Shown piece by piece: positions 3,187-24,370 of a stretch of DNA of 31,933 nucleotides. The position numbers were made by a program, and so were the translations under genes. Numbering within the stretch: position 1 is the stretch's first letter; each line of letters begins with the position of its first letter. The notes below the pieces were generated by a model. The model worked only from the letters and a program-made list of their open reading frames with translations. It was not told the origin of the DNA and did not search any database. Source of the DNA: a virus; the IMG/VR virus record IMGVR_UViG_3300025652_000301, positions 1 through 31,933 of that record, one strand, 5' to 3'.

Positions 3187-3951
3187 TTCTTTTTACTTTA
3201 TTTTGTGAGTTTAAGTCTGTTTCATAACTTAACCAAGTTAAGCACTCTAACAATCCTAAATTCGTTATTCTTTCTAAGTTTACTATTTCAGCATTACACA
3301 ATCTATAAAAAACCCCAAACCACGACCACTTCTCTGCAAAGCTCTCTGTTGCTATTGCGTCTTCGTTTCCTTCAGCCGCTCCATCAAATACAATGGCAAA
3401 ATCTCTGACAACTCCTTCCCTAAAGTGTAAAAAAAAACCAATGCACTTTGCACTTGTTGAGCTGACATCTTTTTCATTTCTTCCGCCCTAAGCCGTATGT
3501 TTCCATCATAAGCATCAACAATATAAATATCATTCTTCTTTTCTTTTATCGGTGCATATAATACAGCCATTATCTCAGGCAAATTCTTCTCTATTCCGTT
3601 CTTTATAAAAGTCTCCAAATCTGCATATTGCCCCAAACTTATACTATCCAAATCAGGCATAAAGCCGTACTCAACACCATCTATTTCAATTATCCTTTTT
3701 AGCTTTGTATCTTGCTCTTGTTGTAGCTCTGCTATCCTGCTCATTATAACTGCTACATCTGATAAAGCTAATTCCTTTACTAACTGTTTAGGAATGTTAG
3801 ATAACGCTGCTATTGTTTCTGTTGCTTCTTCAGTCTTACTACCTGTTTCAAAATCAATAAGTTGCAACCATTTTTCAAGAGTTACATCTTCCCAACTGTT
3901 AATCAATTTGAACTCTTTTACCTTACCTTCCTTTTTGACTTTTACTTTCAT
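3176..3951 (-). CDS. Tail assembly chaperone, -1 frameshift product (gpGT-like), 258 aa
   Basis: Joined reading frame, minus strand 3951-3430 then 3430-3176. The frame of the 199-aa chaperone gene carries a run of nine T (3437-3429) in the context G-GTT-TTT-TTT-TAC. A -1 slip there enters a frame open for 84 further codons, up to a TAA overlapping the start of the 181-aa gene. The extension contains a conserved-looking segment with Glu-Lys-Trp-Ser-Trp-Phe-Gly-Val-Phe-Tyr and Leu-Leu-Glu-Cys-Leu-Thr-Trp-Leu. It resembles the C-terminal domain of other Bacteroidota phage tail chaperones. In lambda-like phages the G and GT products bind the tape measure and tail tube protein before tail assembly. 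The frameshift is inferred; the open -1 frame is directly visible. Confidence 0.65.
3352..3951 (-). CDS. Tail assembly chaperone, unshifted product (gpG-like), 199 aa
   Basis: The zero-frame product is a 199-residue, largely helical, acidic and soluble protein with an N-terminal Asn-Ser-Trp-Glu-Asp-Val-Thr-Leu-Glu segment. It has an internal Ser-Leu-Gly-Gln-Tyr-Ala-Asp-Leu-Glu motif and an Ala-Leu-Val-Phe-Phe stretch encoded over the slippery site. It would be the abundant G-type chaperone, with the longer frameshifted form made at lower level. The ATG directly abuts the late promoter-like motif, leaving essentially no leader. It opens the tail block after terL. The chaperone assignment depends on the -1 frame architecture, which a random hypothetical protein would not show. 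Confidence 0.65.
   Translation of the reverse strand: MKVKVKKEGKVKEFKLINSWEDVTLEKWLQLIDFETGSKTEEATETIAALSNIPKQLVKELALSDVAVIMSRIAELQQEQDTKLKRIIEIDGVEYGFMPDLDSISLGQYADLETFIKNGIEKNLPEIMAVLYAPIKEKKNDIYIVDAYDGNIRLRAEEMKKMSAQQVQSALVFFYTLGKELSEILPLYLMERLKETKTQ
3429..3437 (-). other. Probable -1 ribosomal frameshift site (nine-T slippery run)
   Basis: On the coding strand the sequence reads GG-TTTTTTTTT-AC, which permits tandem slippage of two tRNA-Phe. The zero frame ends 25 codons later, while the -1 frame stays open for 84 codons and encodes a plausible chaperone domain. Because this is a homopolymer, a length error in the sequence could mimic or hide the effect. However, overlapping G/GT frames are a known feature of tail chaperone genes. 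Confidence 0.6.
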
Positions 3952-3972
3952 CTGTTATATAATAGAAATTTG
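3951..3972 (-). promoter_or_regulatory. Late promoter-like motif, copy B (tail block)
   Basis: Minus strand reads TTTCTATTATATAACAG followed at once by the ATG of the tail chaperone. The TCTATTATATAACAGA core is identical in four of the five copies found. The final A of the motif is the A of the start codon, so if the AT-rich core is a -10-type element the mRNA would be leaderless or nearly so. It marks the start of the tail transcription unit. Confidence 0.6.
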
Positions 3973-3983
3973 TTGTTTTTAGT

Positions 3984-5180
3984 TTACTGCACATAATACT
4001 TACCTGCGTTTGGATTGTCTAGGTGATAAATAACATTATACCTTATACCGTCAATAGCGTGGTTGTAGTTATCTACATAAAGCTTAGAACCCTTGTCAGC
4101 GTATATGTAATTGTTTAACTCTTTAGCTATGTTTGTACTCTCAGGAGTTATTATAAGTTCATAGTCTTGCATACGAGTTATACCACTCTCAATAGTTCCT
4201 TTTTTTACAGGCTTGATGTTTACCCCTAAGTGTCTAAGGTCTGCTATTAGTCTTGGTTCTGCACTATCAGCAATGATAAGTTTGTTATCTACTTTGTCTA
4301 ATATGATTTTAGCCAACTCATTTGACTTTATACCATTCTTATAGATATGTTCTTTTAAATATATCTTACGCTTCCTTTTGTCAATAGCTACTTCTGTAAG
4401 GCTGTCAGGGTCTACACTAAAACCAAAGTCCATTCCACAAGAAGTTTGTAAGCCATCAGGATTAAATTCTCCTATTGACCAATTGGTGAACACGACACCA
4501 TCGGCACGGTCTAACCACCCTCCGAGAATTTTGTGCTGATACTTTTTAAAGTTTCTATGCTTTATAGTCTTAATACGCTCTAGGAAGCTCTGTGAGAGAT
4601 TATCTTTGTTGTCTAGGTATGTACTATGTATATAGCATACATTGTCTTTAAAGCCGTTAAAACCTGCTTCAACTCCTTTGTCCTCAAAGAACCTTTTGTA
4701 TATCCAATGCTCTTTAGTAACAGGATTAAGTATAAGTATAATTCTATTCTGTATTCCCTTTTCTCTAATACTCAAATCAATAGTGTCAAAAATATCCTCA
4801 TCAATAAGTTCCTCGGCTTCATCAAGTACCCAAGTGCTTATTCCTTGTAATGACTTTAGACTTGCTGTCTGATTTCCTGCTGATGTCTTAATACCTCTAA
4901 ATAGAATGTCTGACTTGTTTCCTAAATTTAAAACCTCAGCTTTGTTTACACTAAAGATGTTTTCAAAGCCTAACAGACTAATCTTTTCTAAGAACTCAGG
5001 AATGATAGATAGGTGAGCTGATACCATTGTAAATCTTGTAAACAATACTCTTATGTTCTTAGACATAGTAAGTAAAGTTAAAAAGACTGTAACAGCAAAA
5101 GATTTACCTGAACCTCTACCACCTGTTATAATGAAGTATCTAGCGTCAGAATTAAATAGAGGGTTATATTTATTACTCAG
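3984..5180 (-). CDS. terL: Terminase large subunit (non-ATG start, probably CTG), 398 aa
   Basis: The packaging ATPase/nuclease that drives DNA into proheads. The first in-frame ATG (5066) would give 360 residues and lose the Walker A motif. In the same frame upstream, codons encode Tyr-Phe-Ile-Ile-Thr-Gly-Gly-Arg-Gly-Ser-Gly-Lys-Ser, a perfect P-loop. There is no ATG, GTG or TTG before the in-frame stop at 5192-5190, so CTG at 5180 (or CTG/ATA at 5186/5183) is the likely start. Numbered from 5180: P-loop 20-27, Walker B Asp120-Glu121, and RNase-H-type nuclease acids near Asp251, Asp305 and Asp377. The start overlaps the end of terS by eight bases. A single-base change of an ATG, or a +1 shift from terS, are alternatives. 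Confidence 0.9.
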   Translation of the reverse strand: MSNKYNPLFNSDARYFIITGGRGSGKSFAVTVFLTLLTMSKNIRVLFTRFTMVSAHLSIIPEFLEKISLLGFENIFSVNKAEVLNLGNKSDILFRGIKTSAGNQTASLKSLQGISTWVLDEAEELIDEDIFDTIDLSIREKGIQNRIILILNPVTKEHWIYKRFFEDKGVEAGFNGFKDNVCYIHSTYLDNKDNLSQSFLERIKTIKHRNFKKYQHKILGGWLDRADGVVFTNWSIGEFNPDGLQTSCGMDFGFSVDPDSLTEVAIDKRKRKIYLKEHIYKNGIKSNELAKIILDKVDNKLIIADSAEPRLIADLRHLGVNIKPVKKGTIESGITRMQDYELIITPESTNIAKELNNYIYADKGSKLYVDNYNHAIDGIRYNVIYHLDNPNAGKYYVQ

Positions 5181-5442
5181 TATCAGTGTTTACAAATGTT
5201 ATTAAAGGTACATTAAGACTTTCATCATTTGTTGTAACATCTACCCTTTGTTGAGGTTTACCATAAAAGTATTCAAAGAACAGTTTGACTGCCCATTGTT
5301 CTTTCTTGTCAATACCACTTTCTAAAGACTTTAAAGCCTTCTCGTTCATTGGTGTTAAGTTCTCTATTAACTTTTGTTCTGCTGCCTTAGACTTTCGTCC
5401 TGCACCTTTTCTAGCACCGCCATTGTTTATTCGTTTATCCAT
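5173..5442 (-). CDS. terS: Putative terminase small subunit, 89 aa
   Basis: A short basic protein directly upstream of and overlapping terL. Its N-terminus has the Gly-Gly-Ala-Arg-Lys-Gly-Ala-Gly-Arg-Lys-Ser-Lys motif common at the start of phage terminase small subunits and related DNA-binding proteins, followed by a helical region. Small subunits recognise the packaging site and hand DNA to the large subunit. I chose the ATG at 5442 because the motif follows it at once; a TTG at 5466 would add eight residues. A late promoter-like motif lies 28 bases upstream. At 89 residues it is shorter than most small subunits, so it may be a minimal form. Confidence 0.65.
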   Translation of the reverse strand: MDKRINNGGARKGAGRKSKAAEQKLIENLTPMNEKALKSLESGIDKKEQWAVKLFFEYFYGKPQQRVDVTTNDESLNVPLITFVNTDTE

Positions 5443-5470
5443 AATTGAAATAGATTGATTATTCAATCCG

Positions 5471-5498
5471 TATTATATAATAGAAATAATTGTTATTT
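5471..5498 (-). promoter_or_regulatory. Late promoter-like motif, copy A (packaging block)
   Basis: Minus strand carries AAATAAATAACAATTATTT then CTATTATATAATACGG. The core matches the other four copies up to TATTATATAA and then diverges (TACGG instead of CAGA), making it the most degenerate copy. It lies 28 bases before the terS ATG and just after the end of the methylase gene, at the boundary between the early and packaging blocks. Confidence 0.6.
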
Positions 5499-5500
5499 AT

Positions 5501-6136
5501 TTAAAACATAGTTAATTGCTGCTTATGTTTTTCTATTCTTTTCATAGCTGCTTCATAATACTCTTTGTCTAATTCACATGCAGTTAAATCATAACCTAAA
5601 TTATGGCAGGCTATAGCTATACTACCACTTCCAAGATGTGTATCTAGTATCTTATCTCCTTCCTTTGCATAGTTCATTAAAAGCCATTCGTATAATGCAA
5701 TAGGCTTTTGTGTTGGATGCATTCTTATACTTTTTTTACCTACACCTTTTATAGCTCCAATAAAACCATATCTATTACCATCCCACATATATTTAAAAAT
5801 CTTTGCATTTTTATCAAAAGAAGTCCAAGCCATTTCACAATCAGCATAAGTATCAGAATGGTTTAATTTATCCCAATTTAGATAACATCTTGTATTACTT
5901 AAATGCTCTATAAAATAATTACCTCCCCAAATGATTTGGTTTTTACTTACTCTTTTTAATTCTTCAAAATACTCTTTTTTAGGAATTTCATTATCCCAAT
6001 CCTTATTAGATATATTATTTAATCTTTTATTTTTAGTAACACCTATTCCATAAGGAGGGTCTACTATCGCTAAGTCAAAGTGATTATCTTCATACCTTGA
6101 CATTAACTCCATATTACATTCGTTTGTTATATTCAT
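5501..6136 (-). CDS. DNA adenine/cytosine-N4 methyltransferase, beta-type order
   Basis: A 211-residue AdoMet-dependent DNA methylase. The catalytic Asp-Pro-Pro-Tyr motif is at residues 26-29, a His-Pro-Thr-Gln-Lys-Pro segment at 140-145, and the AdoMet-binding Asp-Thr-His-Leu-Gly-Ser-Gly near 165-171, followed by an acidic Glu-Leu-Asp. DPPY before the AdoMet motif is the order of beta-class enzymes. No restriction endonuclease is adjacent, so it is an orphan enzyme that probably protects phage DNA or alters regulatory sites. It overlaps the NinB-like gene by four bases (ATGA) and ends the early block. Target sequence and base cannot be read from the sequence. Confidence 0.9.
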   Translation of the reverse strand: MNITNECNMELMSRYEDNHFDLAIVDPPYGIGVTKNKRLNNISNKDWDNEIPKKEYFEELKRVSKNQIIWGGNYFIEHLSNTRCYLNWDKLNHSDTYADCEMAWTSFDKNAKIFKYMWDGNRYGFIGAIKGVGKKSIRMHPTQKPIALYEWLLMNYAKEGDKILDTHLGSGSIAIACHNLGYDLTACELDKEYYEAAMKRIEKHKQQLTMF

Positions 6137-6516
6137 TCGTATTCGTTTGGAAGCATTAGTCTAATCCCTAAGTCAGTTAAAGCCCACACTCTTATTTGCT
6201 CTGTATATTGCTCAAAGGCTTTAGTGTTTAAAGCTGTTGTACTTCCTATTTTATTTATTGCTATTTGATTATCATTAAAACTTATCATTTCATATTCAGA
6301 CAAGAACTTAGCTCTTAAAGCATCGTGCATTTCGTTTGGAAAATATCCTAGTTCTTCTGCTAGTCCTTGTACGATACATTTCCAATAGTAACTGTTCTGC
6401 ATATTGCTACGAGTGTTTCTTTGTTTCTTTACACTTACTATGTAGTCGTTCTCTAATTCCTTTAGGTAACTAAAAAGGCTTTGCTTGTCTCTATTGTCTT
6501 TTATTACAAACTTCAT
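6133..6516 (-). CDS. NinB-like recombination protein, 127 aa
   Basis: A 127-residue protein with an Arg-Ser-Asn-Met-Gln-Asn-Ser-Tyr-Tyr-Trp segment near residue 37 that resembles the conserved Arg-Ser-x-x-Gln-Asn motif of NinB. In lambda, NinB (Orf) is a single-strand DNA-binding recombination mediator. The C-terminal part contains an Ile-Arg-Val-Trp-Ala segment and ends in Leu-Pro-Asn-Glu-Tyr, as in related Bacteroidota phage proteins. It shares the operon with a NinG homologue, which fits lambda-like recombination functions. Start and stop overlap both neighbours by one to four bases. The family call is moderate. Confidence 0.5.
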   Translation of the reverse strand: MKFVIKDNRDKQSLFSYLKELENDYIVSVKKQRNTRSNMQNSYYWKCIVQGLAEELGYFPNEMHDALRAKFLSEYEMISFNDNQIAINKIGSTTALNTKAFEQYTEQIRVWALTDLGIRLMLPNEYE

Positions 6517-6749
6517 TACTCAGTCTTGCTTCTTATCTTTTCTGTTGCTCCTTCCCATAGCTTGTCTCGTTTTATACTTAGAGTAGGTTCTGTTCTTTTA
6601 AGGTTAGGCATACCGTCTGTTGGTTTACTATCCATATACTTACCACAACTGCATTGAGCTTCTTTGCATACCCATTTTTTATCTCTTAGAACTATTGTAG
6701 CTTTTCCTATTTCCATAGTGTTTCCACATTCGCAAGTATATAGTGTCAT
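6516..6749 (-). CDS. Small zinc-ribbon protein, 77 aa
   Basis: A 77-residue protein with paired cysteine motifs: Cys-Glu-Cys-Gly near the N-terminus, a single Cys before Ala-Gln, then Cys-Ser-Cys-Gly. This suggests one zinc site of ribbon type. The C-terminal half is charged and probably flexible. It overlaps the NinB-like gene by one base. Such tiny zinc proteins are common in phage early operons; the partner and role are unknown. Confidence 0.6.
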   Translation of the reverse strand: MTLYTCECGNTMEIGKATIVLRDKKWVCKEAQCSCGKYMDSKPTDGMPNLKRTEPTLSIKRDKLWEGATEKIRSKTE

Positions 6750-6752
6750 ATC

Positions 6753-7025
6753 TTATTTGCTTAATCTGTCTAGCTCAAAGTGTAAATGGTTTATTGCTTT
6801 CTGTATATCTTGTTCAGCAGGGTTACCTTCTTTTTTACCTGCACGTAAGAGGTAACTGATTGCCGTTCCTATGTTGTAGCTATCAGGTTGAAAGTCCTCA
6901 ACTACTTTTCTTGCTGAGTAACCGTACTTCTTTCCTGAGTAGTAACTTGGTTCAGGTGTTGCTTTATAGTCTAAGTCTATTGGCATAGTTTCTAGGTTTT
7001 TAATTAGTTTCTCGTTCTGTGTCAT
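6753..7025 (-). CDS. DUF3310 family protein, 90 aa
   Basis: The C-terminal half carries the signature of DUF3310 proteins (often labelled nucleotide kinase-like): Tyr-Asn-Ile-Gly-Thr-Ala-Ile-Ser-Tyr-Leu-Leu-Arg-Ala-Gly-Lys-Lys, then Asp-Ile-Gln-Lys-Ala-Ile-Asn-His-Leu. It is a small all-helical phage early protein whose function is not established. It overlaps the 63-aa gene by 26 bases and ends three bases before the zinc-ribbon gene. The kinase label in databases is not supported by any visible P-loop here. Confidence 0.75.
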   Translation of the reverse strand: MTQNEKLIKNLETMPIDLDYKATPEPSYYSGKKYGYSARKVVEDFQPDSYNIGTAISYLLRAGKKEGNPAEQDIQKAINHLHFELDRLSK

Positions 7026-7191
7026 TATTTAAAAGATTAAGTAATTGATGCGGTGTATAAATGCGACTATCACCTGAGTAATTTTCAAAAATACAAGTAA
7101 AGTTATCGTTCTCCCAAGTCCAAAGACTTCTGACATTCTTTTTAACGTGGTTGTTTAATACCCATTTAATTGTTTTATAAGTTCTTTTCAT
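7000..7191 (-). CDS. Hypothetical small protein, 63 aa
   Basis: A short, positively charged protein with three Trp residues and a charged C-terminus. No family recognised. It is the first gene after a 113-base intergenic gap, so it may begin a sub-operon, and it overlaps the DUF3310 gene by 26 bases. Its start is the only ATG near the gap. Coding status is supported by the tight packing and lack of any competing frame. Confidence 0.55.
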   Translation of the reverse strand: MKRTYKTIKWVLNNHVKKNVRSLWTWENDNFTCIFENYSGDSRIYTPHQLLNLLNNDTERETN

Positions 7192-7316
7192 ATCTATTGT
7201 TTTAATTGAGCCAATTAGTATTTATATTCGGTTCATTTTTTTTTAAATACGCTAAGGGTTCAGAAAAAAATAAGAAAATAACCACATTGTTATTTAAGTT
7301 AAGTTTAGCCCTTAGC
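7192..7316 (-). promoter_or_regulatory. Intergenic gap with wide inverted repeat
   Basis: This is the only sizeable gap inside the early block. GCTAAGGG at 7251-7258 and CCCTTAGC at 7309-7316 form an inverted repeat matching at 11 of 12 bases (ATACGCTAAGGG against the complement of CCCTTAGCATAT) with about 50 bases between arms. The right arm lies in the last codons of the 134-aa gene. A short perfect palindrome, AATTGAGCCAATT, lies at 7204-7216. No Bacteroidota -7 box or late motif is present. It may be a transcript-processing or regulatory structure; the role is not clear. Confidence 0.3.
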
Positions 7317-7709
7317 ATATTCTTTATATAGTTTTTTTATCCCATCAAAGCAAGTTGAAATACACGAACCGCAATTCGTTCTTACTCCATAGTTTGTATT
7401 GTAAATTGTGTTATATGTTTCAATCATTCTCTTTTTAGCTGCTTGGTCTTTTGCTCTACCTGTTTTTAAGTCTTCCCACATATCTAAAATTTCATCTACT
7501 ATTTCCTGAGGTAAAGTTTCAGGAGTTTCTACTTCTGTTGTTTTATCCCAATACTTCTGAGGACAAGCCATAGGTGCTATTCGTGCTTTCACTTTCATAA
7601 AGCATTTACAAATGGAGCAATTTCCTAATAAAGATTTATAGTAAACACATCCCTTACAAATTGCTATTCTATCTTCATAGACTTCGTTAGGTACAAAGAA
7701 CTTATTCAT
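7305..7709 (-). CDS. Cysteine-rich zinc-binding protein, 134 aa
   Basis: The N-terminal half holds a cysteine cluster: Cys-Lys-Gly-Cys near residue 18, Cys-Ser-Ile-Cys-Lys-Cys near 31, and Met-Ala-Cys-Pro-Gln-Lys-Tyr-Trp near 48. This suggests a zinc-binding domain. A second pair (Cys-Gly-Ser-Cys) lies toward the C-terminus. This arrangement recurs in Bacteroidota phage proteins of unknown function. It overlaps the sigma factor gene by eight bases and so is translated with it, making a regulatory partnership possible but unproven. Confidence 0.65.
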   Translation of the reverse strand: MNKFFVPNEVYEDRIAICKGCVYYKSLLGNCSICKCFMKVKARIAPMACPQKYWDKTTEVETPETLPQEIVDEILDMWEDLKTGRAKDQAAKKRMIETYNTIYNTNYGVRTNCGSCISTCFDGIKKLYKEYAKG

Positions 7710-8247
7710 TCAATTCTTTTTTAAGTATCTCTCTTACTTTATCTATTGTAGTAAATAAACTATTTCTGCTTATTCCTGTTTTCTTTGCTAGACTGTCTAG
7801 TGTCTCCCCTGAGTAATATAACTCGAATATCTTTTTATCGTACCAAGTTTGCTTATCTAATACTTTGTCAATTTCTTCTAGCTTAGTCCATTTGTAATTG
7901 TCTTCTATTTCTTCAGGTAAGTTATAGATACTATTATGAAAAGCGTTCTGACTAGAGCTTACCATATACACTCCTACTAAATTAGTGTAGTACTTCTTAT
8001 ACTTATAATAAAAAGGACTTCTTACACTTGTCAAACTTCTTCTTAATACTACTGCACCGTAACCCTTTATTCCTTTGATACCATCTTTTTCATAAATGTT
8101 TTTTAATGTTTCAGGGTTCATCTGTAGGAAATACAAGAACATTTCTTGACAAGCGTCATTAATAGCTTCTTCATCTTGCGTTATACCATAACACATATTT
8201 CTAAAGAAAGAACTTAGCTTTGATATTTCTGCGTATATCTCAGTCAT
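7702..8247 (-). CDS. Phage RNA polymerase sigma-70-like factor, 181 aa
   Basis: An ECF-sized sigma-like protein. Residues about 15-60 resemble region 2 (Asp-Glu-Glu-Ala-Ile-Asn-Asp-Ala-Cys-Gln-Glu-Met-Phe). Residues about 135-175 resemble region 4: a Tyr-Asp-Lys-Lys-Ile-Phe-Glu-Leu-Tyr-Tyr helix, then Leu-Asp-Ser-Leu-Ala-Lys-Lys-Thr-Gly-Ile-Ser, a helix-turn-helix, and a basic C-terminus. It would bind host core RNA polymerase and select promoters. It lies in the early block, before the late genes, and five matching AT-rich motifs precede the late operons. It is therefore the natural candidate for the late regulator. The sigma call is good; the motif link is inferred. Confidence 0.75.
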   Translation of the reverse strand: MTEIYAEISKLSSFFRNMCYGITQDEEAINDACQEMFLYFLQMNPETLKNIYEKDGIKGIKGYGAVVLRRSLTSVRSPFYYKYKKYYTNLVGVYMVSSSQNAFHNSIYNLPEEIEDNYKWTKLEEIDKVLDKQTWYDKKIFELYYSGETLDSLAKKTGISRNSLFTTIDKVREILKKELNE

Positions 8248-8593
8248 TTACTTGTTCTAAAGCGTCTATTTTGTCTACTACATCAAAAACCATCTCACTA
8301 AGTACAACCTTATAAGCTCTTATTATTGAAGCGTTAGTTTTAGTTTCAAGCCCTGCAAAGAAACCATTTGTAGCTACTGATAGATTTATTGGTATTATCA
8401 TAATCCAATCGTACCAATTTCTCTCAACTCCTTTGCCATAGTTGTTGTGATATTCTAAGATAGTATCTAGCACATCTAAATAATTATTGTATCTTGATTT
8501 TGAACTTACATCTTTTGCAAACTCAGTACACATAGTTATATAAGTTTCGATTATGTTCTTGTGTTCTTCACTTGCGTATATCGGTTCTATCAT
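8240..8593 (-). CDS. Hypothetical early protein, 117 aa
   Basis: A 117-residue protein, predicted mainly helical, with a hydrophobic stretch near residues 65-80 (Trp-Ile-Met-Ile-Ile-Pro-Ile-Asn-Leu-Ser-Val-Ala) that could be one membrane segment or a buried helix. No family recognised. It overlaps the sigma gene by eight bases and follows NinG after a 22-base gap. Position before the sigma gene is the only functional hint. Confidence 0.6.
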   Translation of the reverse strand: MIEPIYASEEHKNIIETYITMCTEFAKDVSSKSRYNNYLDVLDTILEYHNNYGKGVERNWYDWIMIIPINLSVATNGFFAGLETKTNASIIRAYKVVLSEMVFDVVDKIDALEQVND

Positions 8594-8615
8594 ACGCCAA
8601 ACTTAATAAAAAAGT

Positions 8616-11369: not shown

Positions 11370-11370
11370 C

Positions 11371-11691: not shown

Positions 11692-11705
11692 TTTTATTTA
11701 TTTAT

Positions 11706-12098: not shown

Positions 12099-12487
12099 TA
12101 TTTTGTTCTTAATATTAATGCTTTTCTACCTTTTTGGTTATAAAGCTTGTTGTAGTGTTCTAGTTTATCTATTACCTTCTGATTGTCTTCATCTGTTATA
12201 TTCAAGATGTTGTTCCAATATGAACCTTTAGGCTCAACTTTGTAGTTGTAACATTCATTAAGCATAAGTCCATTCTTCTTACTGTATTCAACTGATGCTA
12301 AATCTATCTGTTCCTTAGTTCCATAAATCCTTATAGACCTTTCGTTCCCTTTTACATCATTATTCAAAATGAATAGGTTGTAATCCCAAGTGGCTTCATT
12401 TGTGTAGCCGTCTCCCTTATAAAAGAAGTCTTGACAAATTAAGTTCAATGTATTGTATTCTATGTATTCTGCGTCTAGTCTAGTCAT
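12098..12487 (-). CDS. Hypothetical early protein, 129 aa
   Basis: A soluble 129-residue protein rich in Asn, Tyr and Asp. The N-terminal part (Leu-Ile-Cys-Gln-Asp-Phe-Phe-Tyr) and a central Ile-Arg-Ile-Tyr-Gly-Thr-Lys-Glu-Gln-Ile give it an alpha/beta appearance. No family recognised. It is second in the early operon, one base after the 73-aa gene, and its stop overlaps the next ATG. Confidence 0.6.
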   Translation of the reverse strand: MTRLDAEYIEYNTLNLICQDFFYKGDGYTNEATWDYNLFILNNDVKGNERSIRIYGTKEQIDLASVEYSKKNGLMLNECYNYKVEPKGSYWNNILNITDEDNQKVIDKLEHYNKLYNQKGRKALILRTK

Positions 12488-12739: not shown

Positions 12740-12770
12740 CAAAGATATAAAAATAAATAGATACTAACAT
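12740..12770 (-). promoter_or_regulatory. Early promoter, Bacteroidota type (TAnnTTTG)
   Basis: Minus strand has TATCTTTG at 12747-12740, a full match to the Bacteroidota -7 consensus TAnnTTTG. It precedes the first early gene (ATG at 12710), giving a leader of roughly 25 bases. The -33 element (TTG) is not clear; TGTTAG lies at about the right distance. It would be read by the host primary sigma factor on infection. Confidence 0.6.
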
Positions 12771-12816
12771 AATTATTATCAAAGTTATTAACAATTTAAG
12801 TGTTAAGAGTGTTTTT

Positions 12817-15202: not shown

Positions 15203-15204
15203 AA

Positions 15205-17046: not shown

Positions 17047-17047
17047 T

Positions 17048-17413
17048 TTATTCTATTATTAATTCATCAGGGTCTACATCTGTACCTTCTGCGTTCTTTT
17101 CATAACCTAAGAACGAATGTACACAATTTACAGGAAATAACTCGTGTATTCCAAAGTCAAATTCTTCTGTAGTCATTAGGTCGTAAAATACTCCATCATA
17201 ATAAATAGGTGGAGTTAATTCTTTACCATCTTTATCATAAGTTGCAGGTACTTCTACTATCTTACCAAGATACACGATTGCTTGTGTACCATTTCTGTAA
17301 ACATCTTGAGTAACTCCTTCTTCAGTTATTACTTCGTAAGTACCTTTAGCAAGTAAGTCAGCATCTCCTTCTGCTTTTGTGTCGTAGTGTAATTTATATA
17401 TGTTTTGATTCAT
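17048..17413 (-). CDS. Small acidic protein before portal, 121 aa
   Basis: A 121-residue acidic protein with an N-terminal segment resembling repeated beta strands (Tyr-Lys-Leu-His-Tyr-Asp, then Val-Ile-Thr-Glu-Glu-Gly-Val). No family recognised. It lies one base from the portal gene and overlaps the end of the homing endonuclease by one base, so it was probably next to the LamG gene before the endonuclease arrived. A minor structural or assembly role is possible. Confidence 0.6.
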   Translation of the reverse strand: MNQNIYKLHYDTKAEGDADLLAKGTYEVITEEGVTQDVYRNGTQAIVYLGKIVEVPATYDKDGKELTPPIYYDGVFYDLMTTEEFDFGIHELFPVNCVHSFLGYEKNAEGTDVDPDELIIE

Positions 17414-17988
17414 TATGCGTAAATTAAGTTTGTTCTATTTTTAAGTCTTCCCGACATCATTGCCCGTAATGTACTTATATTTATATCAAAAATTTTACTT
17501 GCAATTATCATACTTTCATAAAATATACCTGTGCTTGAGTCTAACAATATTTTGCTGTGTTTAGAAGATATTTTTCTTTTTGTTTCATCTGAATGAGTAT
17601 AACCTTTTTTAGAAGTAACTCTTTTGTTTATATGCTCATTACTTTGTTTTCTTCCTTTTCCTGCAATACTCATTTTTTTTCTAACCTCTGTACTAAAAAC
17701 TGCTTTTTTATCTGTTGTTTTAGTTAATATACAATTCAATCCGTTTGTAATAGCATTATAAAACTCTTGCCAATATCTTTCACGATAATTTAATTGTTCA
17801 ACATCACATTCTTCTATTATTTCAATTTGATGATTTTCTATCCCATACTTTAAAATAGAATTAAATATTTTTGGCTGTCCATTACAATTTTTTTGTTTTT
17901 TGTATTCCAATAATCTTTCTTCTAATCTTATAGATTGACCTATATAGACTCTATTTGATGGAGAAGTTATTTTATAAATTCCTATCAT
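17413..17988 (-). CDS. Free-standing GIY-YIG homing endonuclease, 191 aa
   Basis: Residues 1-90 form a GIY-YIG nuclease domain: Gly-Ile-Tyr-Lys-Ile at 3-7, Val-Tyr-Ile-Gly-Gln-Ser at 14-19, a following Arg, and a later Tyr-Arg-Glu-Arg-Tyr-Trp. Residues about 105-145 contain NUMOD3-like repeats (Arg-Lys-Lys-Met-Ser, Gly-Arg-Lys, Lys-Arg-Lys-Ile-Ser). The C-terminus has a NUMOD1-like helix-turn-helix segment (Ala-Ser-Lys-Ile-Phe-Asp-Ile). Such SegA-type enzymes cut a related phage lacking the gene and copy themselves in. It is inserted cleanly between the LamG and 121-aa genes, leaving both intact. Confidence 0.85.
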   Translation of the reverse strand: MIGIYKITSPSNRVYIGQSIRLEERLLEYKKQKNCNGQPKIFNSILKYGIENHQIEIIEECDVEQLNYRERYWQEFYNAITNGLNCILTKTTDKKAVFSTEVRKKMSIAGKGRKQSNEHINKRVTSKKGYTHSDETKRKISSKHSKILLDSSTGIFYESMIIASKIFDINISTLRAMMSGRLKNRTNLIYA

Positions 17989-17989
17989 A

Positions 17990-19126: not shown

Positions 19127-19290
19127 GCTATATTACTTAAATTAGTTAATTGTGCTTCTAAACAAGCCTTAGCCTCAAATACACCTCCATCAGCAACAAC
19201 TCTAACCTTAAAGTCATTTACTTGCTTTTGTACAGGTGTTAATCCTCCTTTATTACTAGAAGGTAAAGACATTCCTAGTGCTAACTTCAT
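19123..19290 (-). CDS. Small structural-region protein, 55 aa
   Basis: A 55-codon frame fills the gap between the 94-aa gene and the LamG gene. Its ATG overlaps the upstream TAA by one base and its TGA overlaps the LamG ATG by four bases. The peptide has a short flexible start, then Asn-Asp-Phe-Lys-Val-Arg-Val-Val-Ala-Asp-Gly-Gly and Phe-Glu-Ala-Lys-Ala-Cys-Leu-Glu. I do not recognise a family. Overlap on both sides is good evidence for translation. Confidence 0.65.
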   Translation of the reverse strand: MKLALGMSLPSSNKGGLTPVQKQVNDFKVRVVADGGVFEAKACLEAQLTNLSNIA

Positions 19291-19574
19291 TATATTACTT
19301 GGTCATAGTAACAAATAGCAATACCACTTGTTAAAGTAATTGCTGAAACTGCAAGAAATAAAGTCGTTCCTGCTGCGATAGTCGTATGAAGCCTTGCAGC
19401 TGAGCTTCCTGTTCCTGTTTGAATATTAGCAGCAGTTATAGAAGCTATAACGCTTTCTGTAACAAAGTAAACTGCATAATAGTCTTTATCTGTCATTGCT
19501 GTTGTTGTAATAACATCACATCTATTTTTCCCTAGTTGCTCAGTTAATAATTGTTGTACGTTTTCTATTGCCAT
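19290..19574 (-). CDS. Small Ala/Thr/Ile-rich structural protein, 94 aa
   Basis: A 94-residue beta-type protein with an N-terminal helix and alternating hydrophobic strands (Leu-Phe-Leu-Ala-Val-Ser-Ala-Ile). It has no clear membrane helix despite the hydrophobic content. Family unknown. It lies between the 160-aa gene and the 55-aa gene in the operon leading to the portal. A capsid decoration or minor tail role would fit its size and composition. Confidence 0.6.
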   Translation of the reverse strand: MAIENVQQLLTEQLGKNRCDVITTTAMTDKDYYAVYFVTESVIASITAANIQTGTGSSAARLHTTIAAGTTLFLAVSAITLTSGIAICYYDQVI

Positions 19575-19585
19575 TTTTTTTTATT

Positions 19586-20068
19586 TTATTGTCCGTAATA
19601 TATATAATTCGTTTCTGTTGGTGCTTCTCTTTGTGTGTATTGAACTTGCTGTGTTCCGTCTTTTTCTGATACGTTCATTTTGCCTTTAGTTACTAAACCC
19701 TGTACTACTCCTTTATCGTTAGCAGCAGGACTTAAAACATCATCTTCTGTTGCAGGTGCATTACCTAAAGATATTGTTACTGTTCCTATCCAACTAACTT
19801 CGTAAACTTCATACTTCCAATATCCTGAAGGTAAAAAGTTAATCTGACCTGCATATAAATTTGGAGTTAATTGATAAACAAATGCTGCTTCTGTGAACCT
19901 TTCTTTTATATCTTCAATAAAAGCGTAAGCGTACTGAACAGACTTATCCATATCATTTGTAAACTTAAACAAATGTCTTATTTGAGTAGAAGCTACAGAA
20001 GTATCTATACGATTATCCTCAGTCTGCACATTTATCTCTAAGTTTGTTTCAGTTATTGCTTGTATCAT
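19586..20068 (-). CDS. Structural protein heading the portal operon, 160 aa
   Basis: A 160-residue protein rich in beta strands, with Phe-Lys-Phe-Thr-Asn-Asp-Met-Asp, Tyr-Gln-Leu-Thr-Pro-Asn-Leu-Tyr-Ala-Gly and Gly-Tyr-Trp-Lys-Tyr-Glu-Val-Tyr-Glu-Val. This strand pattern is seen in small Bacteroidota phage virion proteins near the tail tube gene; I cannot name the role. It is the first gene after the late promoter-like motif at 20079 and the terminator of the capsid operon, so it opens the portal/lysis transcript. Confidence 0.65.
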   Translation of the reverse strand: MIQAITETNLEINVQTEDNRIDTSVASTQIRHLFKFTNDMDKSVQYAYAFIEDIKERFTEAAFVYQLTPNLYAGQINFLPSGYWKYEVYEVSWIGTVTISLGNAPATEDDVLSPAANDKGVVQGLVTKGKMNVSEKDGTQQVQYTQREAPTETNYIYYGQ

Positions 20069-20078
20069 AGTTAGTTTG

Positions 20079-20113
20079 TCTGTTATATAATAGAAATAAG
20101 TTATATTTATTTG
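20079..20113 (-). promoter_or_regulatory. Late promoter-like motif, copy C (portal/lysis block)
   Basis: Minus strand reads CAAATAAATATAACTTATTT then CTATTATATAACAGA, ending ten bases before the ATG at 20068. The core is identical to copies B, D and E, and the upstream CAAATAAATA is shared with copies A and D. It follows an intrinsic terminator by about 15 bases, the arrangement expected of a true promoter. Confidence 0.65.
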
Positions 20114-20126
20114 TATTCAGTTAGTA

Positions 20127-20157
20127 ATAAAAAGAAAAAGGTGAGCCTAAGCCCACC
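20127..20157 (-). terminator. Intrinsic terminator after tail tube gene
   Basis: On the minus strand GGTGGGC-TTAG-GCTCACC forms a seven-pair stem (one G-U) followed by TTTTTCTTTTT. It lies about 28 bases after the stop of the 193-aa gene and just before late motif C, so it ends the scaffold-capsid-tail tube transcript. Confidence 0.75.
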
Positions 20158-20184
20158 CTAATCAAGAAATATATAAGAAAACTA

Positions 20185-20766
20185 CTAAGATGTAACGATT
20201 GTTCCCATTGTAAATGCTGCATTGTCAAATGGGTCTGTAGTGTAATCTTCTACCATTGGGAACGGTTCTGCTTCCATACCGTCAAAGGTAAGAGTATATC
20301 CGTTTTTATCTCCCCAAGCTGCACCACTGTCCATAGTACCTGCATTTAATTCCATTCCATTTACTCTACCTAGACACACGATAACATCGTGTCCGTTAGC
20401 TAGTTGTTGGTTTAATTGAGCAAAGATAACTACTTTTGTAGCTCCTAGCAATTTAACCTGATTTTGGTCTTCTTTTGTAAGTCTGTTGAATAATACCTGA
20501 ACTGTTGGTGTATAGTAGATTGTTCCGTTATCTCTACTTCCAACTATTGTATCTGTAACAGAAGCTACACCTAAAGGCATAGCATATCTGTAAAGAACAT
20601 TAGCTCCCATTTCAATATCAGTAACTTCTCCTGAAGCTTCAACAATTCCTGTTCCGTCTATTGGTGCGTCAAATTGGTCGTAAACTCCGAAATAAATAAA
20701 TTTTACTCCTCCACTGATACGATTACAGTCGAGCCCCCTACCTTTTGTTAGTGCTGTACAAGCCAT
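20185..20766 (-). CDS. Putative major tail tube protein, 193 aa
   Basis: A 193-residue protein starting Met-Ala-Cys-Thr-Ala-Leu-Thr-Lys-Gly-Arg with a Cys-Asn-Arg-Ile-Ser-Gly-Gly-Val-Lys segment. This N-terminal pattern is typical of a tail tube-like protein of Bacteroidota phages. The middle is rich in beta strands, as expected for a gpV/gp17-like fold. It polymerises into the tail tube around the tape measure. It is last in the capsid operon, between a strong hairpin and an intrinsic terminator, which would favour high expression. The assignment is by family resemblance and place. Confidence 0.6.
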   Translation of the reverse strand: MACTALTKGRGLDCNRISGGVKFIYFGVYDQFDAPIDGTGIVEASGEVTDIEMGANVLYRYAMPLGVASVTDTIVGSRDNGTIYYTPTVQVLFNRLTKEDQNQVKLLGATKVVIFAQLNQQLANGHDVIVCLGRVNGMELNAGTMDSGAAWGDKNGYTLTFDGMEAEPFPMVEDYTTDPFDNAAFTMGTIVTS

Positions 20767-20790
20767 TTTATTTGTTTTTTTTAGGTTAAG

Positions 20791-20813
20791 GGAGGAAGGG
20801 TTTTACCCCCTCC
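20791..20813 (-). other. Strong hairpin between capsid and tail tube genes
   Basis: GGAGG-AA-GGG-TTTTA-CCC-CCTCC on the plus strand forms a five-pair and a three-pair stem with a two-base bulge and five-base loop. On the minus (coding) strand it is followed by an A-rich sequence and not by T, so it is not a standard terminator. It may stabilise the upstream capsid mRNA end or mark a processing site. Confidence 0.5.
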
Positions 20814-20832
20814 TTCCGTATTATTTATTTTA

Positions 20833-21744
20833 TTATGATTGGTGTACGATATCAGCTCCGATACCTAACTGAACACCTCCTGAGTAACGAGCAACTAATC
20901 TCATATTGTCAGAACCATCTAAAGCAGCCATATCCATCAAAGCAATTCTTGTTTGATCGCTTAATAAGTCAGTTCCAAAGAATAAGTTAGATTTTTCTGC
21001 TGCTACTAATTGGTCGTTTGGCATACCGTTACAAACAGCGATTTTGTACCCTTCAAATACAGGTGCATAGTCTCCGTTCATATTGTAAGCATTAACATAT
21101 CCTAAAGTAGATACTGCTGAAATATATAAAGCATAAGTCTTTGGAGACATATAGATATGTAAGTCTTCTTTTCTCAATACTGCTGAAATATCAGTTGCCA
21201 TATCTTTTGTTAAAGTTTGTAAGTTAGCAATGATGTTAGCTGCTGTGTAAGCACCTGAAGCAGTTGAAGTGTTTACTGTACCATCTACTGCAAATGCTCC
21301 TGTAGTAGCTGTTAAGAACCCTTCAAATTCTCCTCCTGTTGCTCCTGTTCCTGACCATACTGAAGCCTCAACTCCATTAGCGATAATTTCTCCCATATAA
21401 GAAATTACATAGTCATCAAAACTTGCAGGTGGTGGTGCTCCTGCTCCTGCTCTCATTTGTAATGCTTCCCAACTGTCAAGTAAAGTAGCCTTGCAAAGGT
21501 CTAAGTTGATTTGTAGATTTTTTGGTGTAAGTACATTTTCAGTAAGTGCTAAAGTACCTGCTCCGTCAAAGTTGCAAGTAGCGTCTGCTACTAAAGATGA
21601 ACCTGCCATTTTTTGAATGTTAGACTTAAACTTGATGTTTTCAATCATAGTTAAGTAGTCTAGTGAGTTTGCTTGGTTTAAAGCTGCTGAGATGTAAAAT
21701 CCTGCTGCCTTTCCTGCATAGTTGCTTGTCGTAGTGAAAGCCAT
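20833..21744 (-). CDS. Major capsid protein, HK97-type, 303 aa
   Basis: The main shell protein. At 303 residues it fits an HK97-fold subunit of a roughly 30 kb phage. Features include an N-terminal Thr/Ala-rich arm, an Ala-Pro-Pro-Pro-Ala-Ser loop, and a central helix region with Leu-His-Ile-Tyr-Met-Ser-Pro-Lys-Thr-Tyr. The C-terminal strand set ends Leu-Val-Ala-Arg-Tyr-Ser-Gly-Gly-Val-Gln-Leu-Gly-Ile, as in many Bacteroidota phage capsids. It follows the acidic scaffold gene and precedes the tail tube gene, the standard local order. No delta-domain is evident, in keeping with a separate scaffold. Confidence 0.8.
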   Translation of the reverse strand: MAFTTTSNYAGKAAGFYISAALNQANSLDYLTMIENIKFKSNIQKMAGSSLVADATCNFDGAGTLALTENVLTPKNLQINLDLCKATLLDSWEALQMRAGAGAPPPASFDDYVISYMGEIIANGVEASVWSGTGATGGEFEGFLTATTGAFAVDGTVNTSTASGAYTAANIIANLQTLTKDMATDISAVLRKEDLHIYMSPKTYALYISAVSTLGYVNAYNMNGDYAPVFEGYKIAVCNGMPNDQLVAAEKSNLFFGTDLLSDQTRIALMDMAALDGSDNMRLVARYSGGVQLGIGADIVHQS

Positions 21745-21770
21745 AATTTTTGTTTTTTATTTATTAATTA

Positions 21771-22457
21771 TTATTTATTTAAATCGTGTAAGAACTTTTC
21801 TCTTTTAGATAGTTTGTTATATTCTTTTCTAGCCATTGGCTTTCTATCTGAACTGAACTTGTTTGTATCTAAAGGTGCTGAAGCAGGTTGTGAAGCCAAC
21901 TCAGTCTTTAGTTTTTCGTTTTCTTCTTTTAACTTAGTTAATTCGTCTTCTGCTGAGAATTCAACTACTTCTGTAGTTTTAATAGACTTAGGAGTTGTTC
22001 CTCTTTCTTCAACTTCTTCAACTTCCTCAGCTAATTCTTCAACTTCTTCTTCAGTATCTTTTTCTTCACCTTTTAAGTCTGCAACTGCATCCTCTAGGTT
22101 TTTAATTCTTTTCTCCATACCTTCCCAATCAGCAACATCTGCTTCTTCAGCTAATTCTTCAGTAACTTCCATTTCTTCTTCTTCAACTACTTCTTCAGTT
22201 TCGCTTTCAATAACCTCAGCAACAATACCTTCTTCTTCAACTCTGAAAGATACTCCTGTATCAGTCTTGTAAGTTCCAACAGGTAATAAAATTGTAGTAC
22301 CATCTTCAGTTAATACTGAGATGTCCACTCCTGCTTCTAATTCTTCAGCAGTTGAAACGAAAATAGTTCCATCTTCTGATTTTGCTTGCCACTCTAAAGA
22401 GATTGTTTCTTCTTTGTCAAGTCCAAGTGCTACTAAAATTTGCGTCTTTAAATCCAT
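21771..22457 (-). CDS. Acidic scaffold protein, 228 aa
   Basis: A highly acidic, low-complexity 228-residue protein. Residues about 80-155 are dominated by Glu, Val and Ala, and a coiled coil follows (Leu-Lys-Glu-Glu-Asn-Glu-Lys-Leu-Lys-Thr-Glu-Leu near 175-190). The C-terminus is basic (Lys-Glu-Tyr-Asn-Lys-Leu-Ser-Lys-Arg-Glu-Lys). That charge layout and its place directly before the capsid gene are typical of scaffolds, whose basic tail binds the shell. A late promoter-like motif lies 16 bases upstream of its ATG. The Ser-rich open frame on the opposite strand is only its shadow. Confidence 0.7.
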   Translation of the reverse strand: MDLKTQILVALGLDKEETISLEWQAKSEDGTIFVSTAEELEAGVDISVLTEDGTTILLPVGTYKTDTGVSFRVEEEGIVAEVIESETEEVVEEEEMEVTEELAEEADVADWEGMEKRIKNLEDAVADLKGEEKDTEEEVEELAEEVEEVEERGTTPKSIKTTEVVEFSAEDELTKLKEENEKLKTELASQPASAPLDTNKFSSDRKPMARKEYNKLSKREKFLHDLNK

Positions 22458-22473
22458 AGTTTATTTTTTAAGT

Positions 22474-22504
22474 TCTGTTATATAATAGAATAATTATTTA
22501 TTTG
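22474..22504 (-). promoter_or_regulatory. Late promoter-like motif, copy D (capsid block)
   Basis: Minus strand reads CAAATAAATAATTAT then TCTATTATATAACAGA, 16 bases before the scaffold ATG. The 16-base core is identical to copies B, C and E. It would give scaffold, capsid and tail tube a transcript of their own, ending at the terminator near 20140. Confidence 0.65.
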
Positions 22505-22528
22505 TTTGATTTTTAGATTTTATTAGGG

Positions 22529-22963
22529 TTACAGAATTTTCTTTAACATTTCATTCCAACCATTTAAAGCATTTTGATTTTCAAACATTTCATTTATTAA
22601 TTTATTTGCTTCTTTATATCCTTTCACATCATTTACAGGCACTCCTAATTCTTTTGCTTGAACTTCTATTTTATTCAAGACTTTATCACTTTCTTTCTTT
22701 AATGTACCTGCTTGTCTTATAGCACCTCTAGTAATTCCTTCTGCATCAGAAATTACTTTTTTTACTTCTTTAAATTGAGTTTCTGCTTTTTCTCCCCATT
22801 TAAAACCATCTTCTTGTAAGCCAATTATTCTTTTAGCATCACTAACTATATTTTTTAAATCATCAGCAACTCCCAACTCAACCTTCTCAGTCTTAAGTTC
22901 AGTTTTGTTTTCTCTTATTAGCTTGTTTAAAGCACTTAGTATTTGTTCTTGTTTTGTTTTCAT
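22529..22963 (-). CDS. Helical protein, paralogue of the 154-aa protein, 144 aa
   Basis: A Lys/Glu-rich, all-helical protein. It shares layout and motifs with the 154-aa protein at 23842-24306: Lys-Val-Glu-Leu near residue 27 and Gln-Ala-Lys-Glu-Leu-Gly-Val near 105, followed by a short linker and a helix with Leu-Ile-Glu/Asn. The two flank the protease gene and seem to be products of an old duplication. Role unknown; proteins co-expressed with the maturation protease may be internal head or scaffold-like proteins. Confidence 0.6.
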   Translation of the reverse strand: MKTKQEQILSALNKLIRENKTELKTEKVELGVADDLKNIVSDAKRIIGLQEDGFKWGEKAETQFKEVKKVISDAEGITRGAIRQAGTLKKESDKVLNKIEVQAKELGVPVNDVKGYKEANKLINEMFENQNALNGWNEMLKKIL

Positions 22964-22964
22964 A

Positions 22965-23837
22965 TTATAAGTTTAATTTTTTCTCGTAACTTAAAGCTTC
23001 TTTCTGCTTTCCTGAAGCTATTGTAATTTGTTTACTTATGTCTTTTATAGCTTCTTTAGAACCTAATTCTTTAGCCATTGTTAGTGCTTTTTCATATATC
23101 TTAATAGCTCTATCGTAATTGTGTGCTGAAAGTTTCCACCCTCCCTGAGCATTTGATTGTGTTTGTACAGCTTCTTTATAAAATGAATTACCTAAATCCA
23201 TTAATTTAGCAGCGTCATCCATTATACTTAAATCAACCTTCTGAACACTTAACAATTCTTTTAGTGCTGTCTTAACTTCTTCGTTTGTAAATTCTTTCTT
23301 TTGCATTTGTTCAAATTTATTAGTAAAGTAGCCTTCTATTGAAAGACCTTTTAATTCTCCTTCTTTGATTTTATTCCAAAGTTCGTCATTTTCTATCTTC
23401 ATTTTAACAAACCAAGTGCCGTTAGGTAAGTCGTAACCGTATAACTTAGATTTGTCTTGGTCACCTTCCTTAATCCAACTTTCAACTGTTAGAACGCCTG
23501 AAACTCTATCTTGATGTTGGTATGTAGCTTTATGGTGGTTGTTATGTTTTAAATAAAGTTCACTTGCTTTCCTAACTGTATCAGGACTAAAGTAAACATA
23601 ATAGTCGCTGTCTGTATTAGGGTCGTGTCTGAATATTTGCTTATTAGGAATAAGTGCAGGACTAACCAACATTCTTTTCTCCTCATCTACCTTAGCGAAT
23701 GTTAAGTTGTTCTTTTCTTTTCCAAAGTAAACAAAGTCTTGTTCTATTGCAGGTGAAGTTACTAAACTGATAGCGTCAATAGCTAGTTCTTGACTATCGT
23801 CTGCAATTACTAATTCTACTATTTTAGTTGGTGTCAT
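22965..23837 (-). CDS. XkdF-like prohead protease with helical C-terminal domain, 290 aa
   Basis: Residues 1-190 resemble the XkdF/S78-like phage serine protease family: Ala-Ile-Ser-Leu-Val-Thr-Ser-Pro-Ala-Ile, then Arg-Met-Leu-Val-Ser-Pro-Ala-Leu-Ile-Pro, His-Lys-Ala-Thr-Tyr-Gln-His-Gln-Asp, Val-Glu-Ser-Trp-Ile and a Leu-Lys-Gly-Leu-Ser-Ile-Glu-Gly-Tyr-Phe strand near 175 that would hold the catalytic Ser. The C-terminal 90 residues are helical with a repeat-like Tyr-Asp-Arg-Ala-Ile-Lys-Ile-Tyr-Glu-Lys-Ala-Leu (TPR-like). The enzyme would cleave scaffold and capsid arms during head maturation. It lies between two paralogous helical proteins. Confidence 0.7.
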   Translation of the reverse strand: MTPTKIVELVIADDSQELAIDAISLVTSPAIEQDFVYFGKEKNNLTFAKVDEEKRMLVSPALIPNKQIFRHDPNTDSDYYVYFSPDTVRKASELYLKHNNHHKATYQHQDRVSGVLTVESWIKEGDQDKSKLYGYDLPNGTWFVKMKIENDELWNKIKEGELKGLSIEGYFTNKFEQMQKKEFTNEEVKTALKELLSVQKVDLSIMDDAAKLMDLGNSFYKEAVQTQSNAQGGWKLSAHNYDRAIKIYEKALTMAKELGSKEAIKDISKQITIASGKQKEALSYEKKLNL

Positions 23838-23841
23838 AATT

Positions 23842-24306
23842 TTATTTTAAAGCTGATACATTAATAATTCCTTTTGCAGTATTCATAAACATATCAATAG
23901 TTTCTTGCGCACCCTCAGCTTGTTCTATTAAATCTACAAGCTCTCTAACATTAGGTATTTCACTAGGATTAACTCCTAATTCTTTTGCTTGTTTTACTAT
24001 TTGCTTAGAAAGTATTTCTGAATTTTTAACTGCTAAATCAACTGCTTTTTTGTTTTCTACAGCAGTATTGTATTGCTTTTCTACTTCTTTTCTTTGTTCT
24101 TGTATATCTCTTAAAGATTTACCTAATTTACTTTTATTACTTTTAATTTGTTTTACTGCTGTACCTAAAGCTTTTACAAATTTGTCTAACTCCTTGATAT
24201 TAGCCAACTCAACTCTTTCAACTTTACTCAAGTTAATTTCTTTATATTCCTTTAATTCTTTTTTGTATTGCTCGTAAGTCTTTCCTAATGGTGTTGGAGT
24301 GTTCAT
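23842..24306 (-). CDS. Helical protein heading the protease operon, 154 aa
   Basis: A 154-residue, strongly charged coiled-coil-like protein with Val-Glu-Arg-Val-Glu-Leu-Ala-Asn near residue 26 and Gln-Ala-Lys-Glu-Leu-Gly-Val-Asn near 110. It is paralogous in outline to the 144-aa protein on the other side of the protease gene. It is the first gene after late motif E. No named family is recognised; internal head or assembly role inferred only from its neighbours. Confidence 0.6.
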   Translation of the reverse strand: MNTPTPLGKTYEQYKKELKEYKEINLSKVERVELANIKELDKFVKALGTAVKQIKSNKSKLGKSLRDIQEQRKEVEKQYNTAVENKKAVDLAVKNSEILSKQIVKQAKELGVNPSEIPNVRELVDLIEQAEGAQETIDMFMNTAKGIINVSALK

Positions 24307-24334
24307 AGTATTTATTTAAGATTGTAATTAAGGT

Positions 24335-24370
24335 TCTGTTATATAATAGATATATAGTTAATATATTTGA
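24335..24370 (-). promoter_or_regulatory. Late promoter-like motif, copy E (protease block)
   Basis: Minus strand reads TCAAATATATTAACTATATA then TCTATTATATAACAGA, 28 bases before the ATG at 24306 and just after the tape measure stop. The core is identical to copies B, C and D. It separates the tail operon from the capsid-maturation genes. Confidence 0.6.

Follow-up and report, generated by a model that had tools for sequence, protein, structure and literature searches.

Salmonella phage 7-11 encodes a sigma factor, gp47, whose late promoters are described as GTAAtg-(16)-aCTA, and phage phiEco32 encodes another, gp36, which is described in the same article as using single-element promoters of the form tAATGTAtA (PMC8948821). 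That article also groups phage GAP52 with 7-11, and in its Discussion the 7-11 authors predict further sigma-promoter pairs in phages (PMC8948821). The IMG/VR virus record IMGVR_UViG_3300025652_000301, a stretch of 31,933 bases that was analysed whole and is referred to below as the window, appears to hold such a predicted pair, here in phages with hosts from another phylum: a gene at 7702-8247 for a sigma factor resembling the extracytoplasmic function (ECF) class, and five copies of a two-box element on the minus strand. By its terL and portal matches the window belongs to a tailed phage, which has a large set of close relatives among the IMG/VR contigs. Late sigma systems of the phiEco32 and 7-11 type are recognised by a conserved promoter element at the starts of late gene blocks, and a conserved bipartite element is found at late-block starts here. 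It is very probable that these sites are late promoters, in a cascade in which a host-type early promoter leads to the phage sigma factor and the phage sigma factor to phage-specific late promoters. No earlier description of such a system in Bacteroidota phages was found in the open-licence PMC literature, as covered by listings and the opening parts of abstracts.

As far as the 7-11 system is set out in that article, it resembles the system proposed for the window: an ECF-type phage sigma factor is presumably first made from an early transcript, with the host primary sigma factor serving the early genes, and several bipartite promoters lie upstream of late genes, with transcription starting a few nucleotides (nt) from the element. 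The two differ in promoter sequence, spacing and host phylum. On the NCBIfam sigma70-ECF profile TIGR02937, gp47 scores above the cut-off (54.8 bits). No significant kinship between it and the window protein was detected: BLASTP aligned 24 residues at an expect value (E) of 0.036, and hhalign gave a probability of 2.3. The analogy suggests that the window system works like that of 7-11, and homology beyond the sigma fold is not supported by sequence comparison. With phiEco32 the window shares a phage sigma factor for middle and late genes and an A+T-rich -10-like element, from which transcription starts 6-8 bp downstream in phiEco32; the phiEco32 promoters are described as having no -35 element, whereas the window system has a clear upstream box and a sigma region 4.

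The original prediction listed five near-identical minus-strand sites. Four are exact copies of TCTATTATATAACAGA (3951-3966, 20079-20094, 22474-22489 and 24335-24350), and the fifth, ahead of terS, is a variant, TCTATTATATAATACG, with three mismatches, which lies at 5469-5484 and not at 5471. When up to three mismatches are allowed on both strands, the window holds 11 matches to TCTATTATATAACAGA, a number reached by none of 100 shuffled versions of the window (mean 1.54, maximum 5); because the element is nearly self-complementary each real site is counted twice, and the eleventh match, at 12192, is intragenic and lacks a box. The element consists of an A-rich box, [CA]AA[AC][TC]AAA[TA], followed at a fixed spacing by the core TCTATTATAT. 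An upstream extension had been noted in several copies, which understated it, since the box stands at an equal distance in all five, that at 24335 being the weakest. The proposed AT-rich recognition sequence likewise proved to be a conserved element, but one made of two parts where a single AT-rich stretch had been proposed, and the conservation does not extend to its palindromic appearance. Each site opens a late gene block (the long genes are on the minus strand), so that the five placements hold, but the labels "tail chaperone" and "scaffold" given to two of the genes were not confirmed: the w3352 product matches PHROG 32199, of unknown function, and the w21771 product has no PHROG match. 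The copy at 20079 does follow a hairpin and U-run of the intrinsic-terminator type, as had been claimed, and the reported absence of TAnnTTTG was also borne out, none being found on the coding strand from -100 to +60 of the five sites. An Rfam search returned nothing at gathering thresholds.

Conservation was assessed in 24 related IMG/VR records by seeking the exact core in the 150 nt that precede each gene. Among the relatives that have the gene, the core precedes w3352 in 23 of 23, w19586 in 18 of 18, w21771 in 19 of 19 and w23842 in 5 of 5, and it lies directly before w22965 in 6 of 20. It is upstream of terS in 11 of 16 records; in the other five it lies farther upstream, before an inserted gene without a window homologue. 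Across 81 distinct coding-strand sites, window included, the A-rich box spans -19 to -10, with A at -18 in 80, at -17 in all 81 and at -12 in 80, in a search that fixed the core only and not the box. The six nucleotides 3′ of the core vary (AACAGA, ATTACA, ACTAGA, TTAAAA and others), and since only TCTATTATAT is kept the palindrome is not under selection; the pattern looks like that of a directional promoter and not of a dimer operator. When 5-16 nt were permitted between CAAATAAAT and TCTATTATAT, the spacing was 10 nt in 92 of 96 cases, 6 in three and 11 in one, in loci originally chosen by the motif with 9-11 nt permitted; the 11-nt case lies in an unrelated contig without a window homologue. 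Over all loci collected, a strict box stands at the fixed distance in 368 of 501 distinct exact-core contexts.

A matrix was built from 38 sites of distant relatives (sigma identity at most 64% where known) with an exact core and a loose box required, exact cores that lack such a box at this distance being left out of it and of the start-codon count below. Scanned over the window, it placed the five sites at the top (28.7-37.0), with the next score at -0.7 and the best of 60 simulated sequences at 9.6; because the training sites are homologous promoters, this result measures conservation and not independent invention. With three mismatches allowed, the 16-mer is matched in 31 of 33 records, the exceptions being phages P12024S and P12024L, which are considered below.

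The product of 7702-8247, which the original prediction called sigma-70-like, is a two-domain ECF-like sigma factor as judged by profile and predicted fold. It matches TIGR02937 with E 4.7e-8 (residues 10-179, model positions 9-165 of 165) and PHROG 1740 with E 2.9e-4. An AlphaFold2 model built on a 32-sequence alignment is helical and two-domained with residues 88-115 disordered, at moderate confidence (predicted local distance difference test, pLDDT, 74.5; predicted template modelling (TM) score 0.42); a model from a shallower alignment had given pLDDT 68.7 and a best Foldseek E of 0.055. The best PDB match to the newer model by Foldseek is the ECF sigma factor SigL (E 8e-4, TM-score 0.36), nearly all structures listed are sigma factors or sigma-containing complexes, and the viral matches include the ECF sigma factor of phage GAP52 (E 6.3e-3). 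Modelled region 2 resembles SigR, 1h3l (Z 9.0, 1.8 Å, 70 residues), and modelled region 4 resembles sigma-E on -35 DNA, 2h27 (Z 8.6, 2.9 Å, 67 residues). In the model, regions 2 and 4 are joined by a flexible linker with no region 3, which is the architecture of ECF sigma factors. The helix-turn-helix of region 4 is nearly invariant in the 32-sequence alignment, which would fit an invariant DNA target. A sequence search of the PDB gave nothing convincing (best E 0.084, not a sigma factor), and tblastn against a phage collection gave no match at E 0.1.

With regard to the co-occurrence of motif and sigma gene, contigs were chosen by the motif only (at least 80 loci), and 21 records behind them were examined, namely, among the matches listed, all 17 of at least 27 kb, three of 18-21 kb and one contig of odd spacing. 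The sigma gene is present in 18 of the 21 and, again among the matches listed, in 17 of the 17 long contigs, so the co-occurrence that had been proposed as a check was found; four of the 17 (G010, G016, G021 and G042) had also been retrieved through sigma or terL searches. Relatives with the motif and without the sigma gene, which would speak against the proposal, were sought and not seen, the three records lacking it being a contig that ends at terL, a contig that ends in the sigma-adjacent gene and an unrelated contig. Altogether 213 loci carry a sigma gene (some overlap on one contig). Sigma was found in 110 of 169 terL loci (again with some overlap), at 2.4-5.9 kb from terL; among the 59 without a match, eight belong to the P12024 branch, 32 stop short of the 2.4 kb upstream of terL at which sigma is found at the nearest, and 19 end 2.5-3.9 kb upstream, where absence of the gene is not judgeable.

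Start codons were surveyed at 413 distinct sites of the window type, each with a core and a loose box, by taking the first ATG that opens at least 40 codons at positions 10-59, the first base of the core being position 0; start codons were thus picked mechanically, and most sites are orthologous. The first ATG is at 13 in 108 sites and at 14-16 in 118 (101 of them at 15), there is none at 10-12, and 13 sites have no ATG. Position 13 occurs in six gene families, and the six P12024S sites found by matrix all have ATG at 13 or 14. This sharp floor, common to unrelated genes, points to an RNA start at about position 13, in which case the late mRNAs would be leaderless or nearly so. In F. johnsoniae, 87% of predicted transcripts are given as having leaders longer than 10 nt (PMC6847099).

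Isolated kin of the window phage are the Nonlabens (Persicivirga) phages P12024S and P12024L, of genus Inhavirus and from seawater, whose terL is 64% identical. In both, the record of a syntenic gene carries a note that mentions Sigma-70 region 2 (in P12024S this gene is P12024S_33, identified by synteny and by its own annotation); the P12024S protein scores 25.2 on Pfam Sigma-70 region 2, above the cut-off of 24, and 29.5 bits on TIGR02937, below the cut-off of 42.9. Their repeated element, which immediately precedes start codons, consists of AAAACAAA, about 10-11 nt and a -10 box that ends in CGTTAATA. Trained on 13 sites of this branch on other contigs, a matrix finds six sites in P12024S with scores of 18.1-38.7, against 2.0 for the next site and 15.0 for the highest-scoring of 40 simulated sequences; a seventh, at 23947, was recognised by consensus outside the matrix list, with its box one base nearer. 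The P12024S elements of this type lie at 165, 3017, 5398, 21267, 23947, 25187 and 26788. The two branches are thus alike in the syntenic sigma-like gene and in an A-rich upstream box at nearly equal spacing, and differ in the -10 box, which is CGTTAATA in P12024 and TCTATTATAT in the window. Because CGTTAATA replaces TCTATTATAT behind a similar A-rich box, the sister branch has kept the box and changed the -10 element. We give about an even chance to a fuller account in which this widely sampled lineage, kin to viruses of seawater flavobacteria, uses its own ECF-like sigma factor for often leaderless late mRNAs and sister lineages have re-tuned the -10 box while keeping the A-rich box and the geometry, with starts fused to AUG although most mRNAs of Flavobacterium itself have leaders. 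If true, sigma factors and promoters that diverged together would be available as a natural series among phages of Bacteroidota. The only match to a strict P12024-type pattern, in contig L407, was rejected as a chance match; this contig has no window homologue and no P12024-type sigma gene.

Primary promoters of Bacteroidota have TTTG at -33 and TAnnTTTG at -7, with TAHHTTTG as the refined host -7 box. The early operon had been said to carry TAnnTTTG, and two such boxes do lie ahead of it (Table 1), but the fuller TTG-N17-23-TAnnTTTG element was not found there; with 6 occurrences in the window against an expectation of 7.25, that pattern shows no enrichment and is therefore not used as evidence by itself. 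TAHHTTTG follows w12973, ahead of the early genes, in all 16 relatives in which the region was examined. Since TAnnTTTG is a frequent sequence, with 31 copies on the window's minus strand or roughly 0.5 per 500 nt, the early boxes count as supporting evidence only. The sigma gene sits within the early gene run, and a matrix scan of the window found no late element in front of it.

In the proposed mechanism, host RNA polymerase with its primary sigma factor (Bacteroidota sigma-ABfr type) would start early transcription at a TAnnTTTG-type promoter near 12.74 kb, giving an operon transcript that includes the sigma gene. The phage sigma factor, with regions 2 and 4 only, would then join the host core enzyme and direct it to the bipartite element, region 4 reading the A-rich box and region 2 melting TCTATTATAT. 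Counted from the first T of the core, transcription would start some 13 nt downstream, often at or a few nucleotides from the start codon, and the late mRNAs of the packaging, head and tail genes would have no leader or almost none. Physical recognition, timing and the exact start are what we infer, as is the host, from the kin of the phage. The sigma switch envisaged in the original prediction is supported by the fixed, conserved two-box element at late-block starts and by the sigma profile and fold, with binding by the sigma factor as the presumed step between them.

It is unlikely that the late promoters are read by a host sigma factor (primary or ECF) together with some other phage activator, the 7702-8247 protein doing something else. 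Such an arrangement would suit the A+T-richness of the core, which is that of many -10 boxes, and the 117-aa gene beside the sigma gene could provide the activator, the link from sigma factor to DNA being one that we infer; but the element co-occurs with the phage sigma gene, the P12024 branch differs in both sigma factor and -10 box, and the five sites have no coding-strand TAnnTTTG nearby, on which ground a host-type promoter was rejected. An action on RNA, as a translation-start or processing signal, is very improbable. The window-branch ATG ranges from position 13 to 53 while the geometry of box and core is fixed, for which reason this candidate was rejected; moreover, the sites open gene blocks and do not precede most genes, and one follows a terminator-like hairpin. 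What speaks for it is the constant ATG distance in the P12024 branch and in several window-type genes, together with the A-rich, Kozak-like context that Flavobacterium ribosomes are described as using (PMC6847099). We consider it scarcely credible that a dimeric repressor or activator uses the near-palindrome as its operator: the window 16-mer differs from its own reverse complement at only two positions, but strict conservation is confined to the left part, TCTATTATAT, the upstream box with its fixed spacing makes the element directional, and the symmetry is lost in many relatives, which led to the rejection of this candidate.

Several observations weigh against late promoters read by the phage sigma factor. 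The TIGR02937 score of the 7702-8247 product, 32.8 bits, is under the curated cut-off of 42.9, for which reason the protein is called ECF-like and not a member of that family, and its Pfam Sigma70_r4_2 match has an E of only 0.084. The structural matches are between helical folds with Z below 13 and a whole-chain TM-score of 0.36, and possibly reflect just a common arrangement. The P12024 and window sigma profiles are weakly alike (hhalign probability 43 and 30, P 2.5e-4 and 5.5e-4, 45 columns). As to the element, in eight of 20 records the 24335-type position lacks an exact core, before w23842 and before w22965 alike; 10 of 106 distinct exact cores in the 24 records are on the non-coding strand, against 96 on the coding strand; and among the 501 exact-core contexts 123 have no strict box, a figure that takes weak boxes and chance cores together, and 10 have a box elsewhere only. 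The relatives share ancestry, so that their sites are not independent. Finally, contig G050 has exact cores at four places with sigma identity down to 46%, and in L110, with sigma identity of 56%, the cores are altered at both sites seen (TACATTATAT before terS at 6862 and TCTATATATT before w3352 at about 8450), so that sigma factor and motif do not change in step. The L110 promoter set is perhaps re-tuned or decaying.

If the sites are late promoters, the late genes of a group that spans hundreds of IMG/VR stretches can be mapped by reading them, and Bacteroidota genetics gains a candidate orthogonal promoter. The two isolated relatives, P12024S and P12024L, offer a system in which the pair could be tested. 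Coordinates of the elements and associated features are collected in Table 1.

Table 1. Putative late promoter elements and associated features in the window
Feature	Position	Strand	Details
Putative late promoter element, w3352 (199-aa gene, just after terL)	3951-3985	-	box 3977-3985; core TCTATTATAT 3957-3966; predicted start ~3953; w3352 ATG 3951
Putative late promoter element, terS (5173-5466)	5469-5503	-	box 5495-5503; core 5475-5484; predicted start ~5471
Putative late promoter element, 160-aa gene 19586-20068	20079-20113	-	box 20105-20113; core 20085-20094; predicted start ~20081
Putative late promoter element, 21771-22457 (acidic 228-aa gene ahead of putative capsid gene)	22474-22508	-	box 22500-22508; core 22480-22489; predicted start ~22476
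Putative late promoter element, 23842-24306 (154 aa)	24335-24369	-	box 24361-24369; core 24341-24350; predicted start ~24337; weakest box, least conserved position
Predicted ECF-like sigma factor, 181 aa	7702-8247	-	region 2 ~1-80; disordered linker ~88-115; region 4 ~117-180
117-aa gene, possible partner	8240-8593	-	overlaps sigma start by 8 nt; beside sigma in relatives examined
Early control region	12740-12787	-	TAACTTTG 12787-12780; TATCTTTG 12747-12740; host-type -7 boxes ahead of early operon holding sigma gene
Intrinsic-terminator-like hairpin and U-run	~20126-20165	-	-16.6 kcal/mol, z -5.5; just upstream of 20079 element

The product of the gene beside the sigma gene has no Pfam or PHROG match and is a candidate anti-sigma factor or activator. 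Between the sigma operon and terS lies a variable cargo slot (5501-6136), which holds a DNA methyltransferase gene in the window and, in relatives (for example L159 at 6553, L171 at 3711 and L192 at 8783), a gene for a ParB-N protein or one that we take to resemble QueD; the cargo-slot genes of relatives have their own copy of the late element, often with ATG at 13. Adjoining the terS stop, terL has a 41-codon open frame upstream of its first ATG (5067-5190) with a Walker-A-like GGRGSGKS, and exactly 41 such codons were counted in 111 of 162 loci measured; terL therefore probably begins at a codon other than ATG (CTG, judged by eye).

Near its left end the window has three 300-nt stretches that recur 29.26-29.31 kb downstream at 91-95% identity with the same genes (1-2207 against 29265-31513). 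The two ends of the contig thus resemble variants of a single region, which probably makes the genome a circular or circularly permuted one of about 29.3 kb. A GC-rich inverted repeat seen by eye, GGAAGGAGGGGGTAAAACCCTTCCTCC (20767-20832), lies between the putative capsid gene and 20185-20766 and may be a terminator or attenuator, and 17413-17988 in the late region looks, also by eye, like a GIY-YIG homing endonuclease gene. In a scan of genome contigs, two, L197 and L198, were found in metagenome-assembled genomes labelled Pseudooceanicola and Euryarchaeota, and are probably misbinned.

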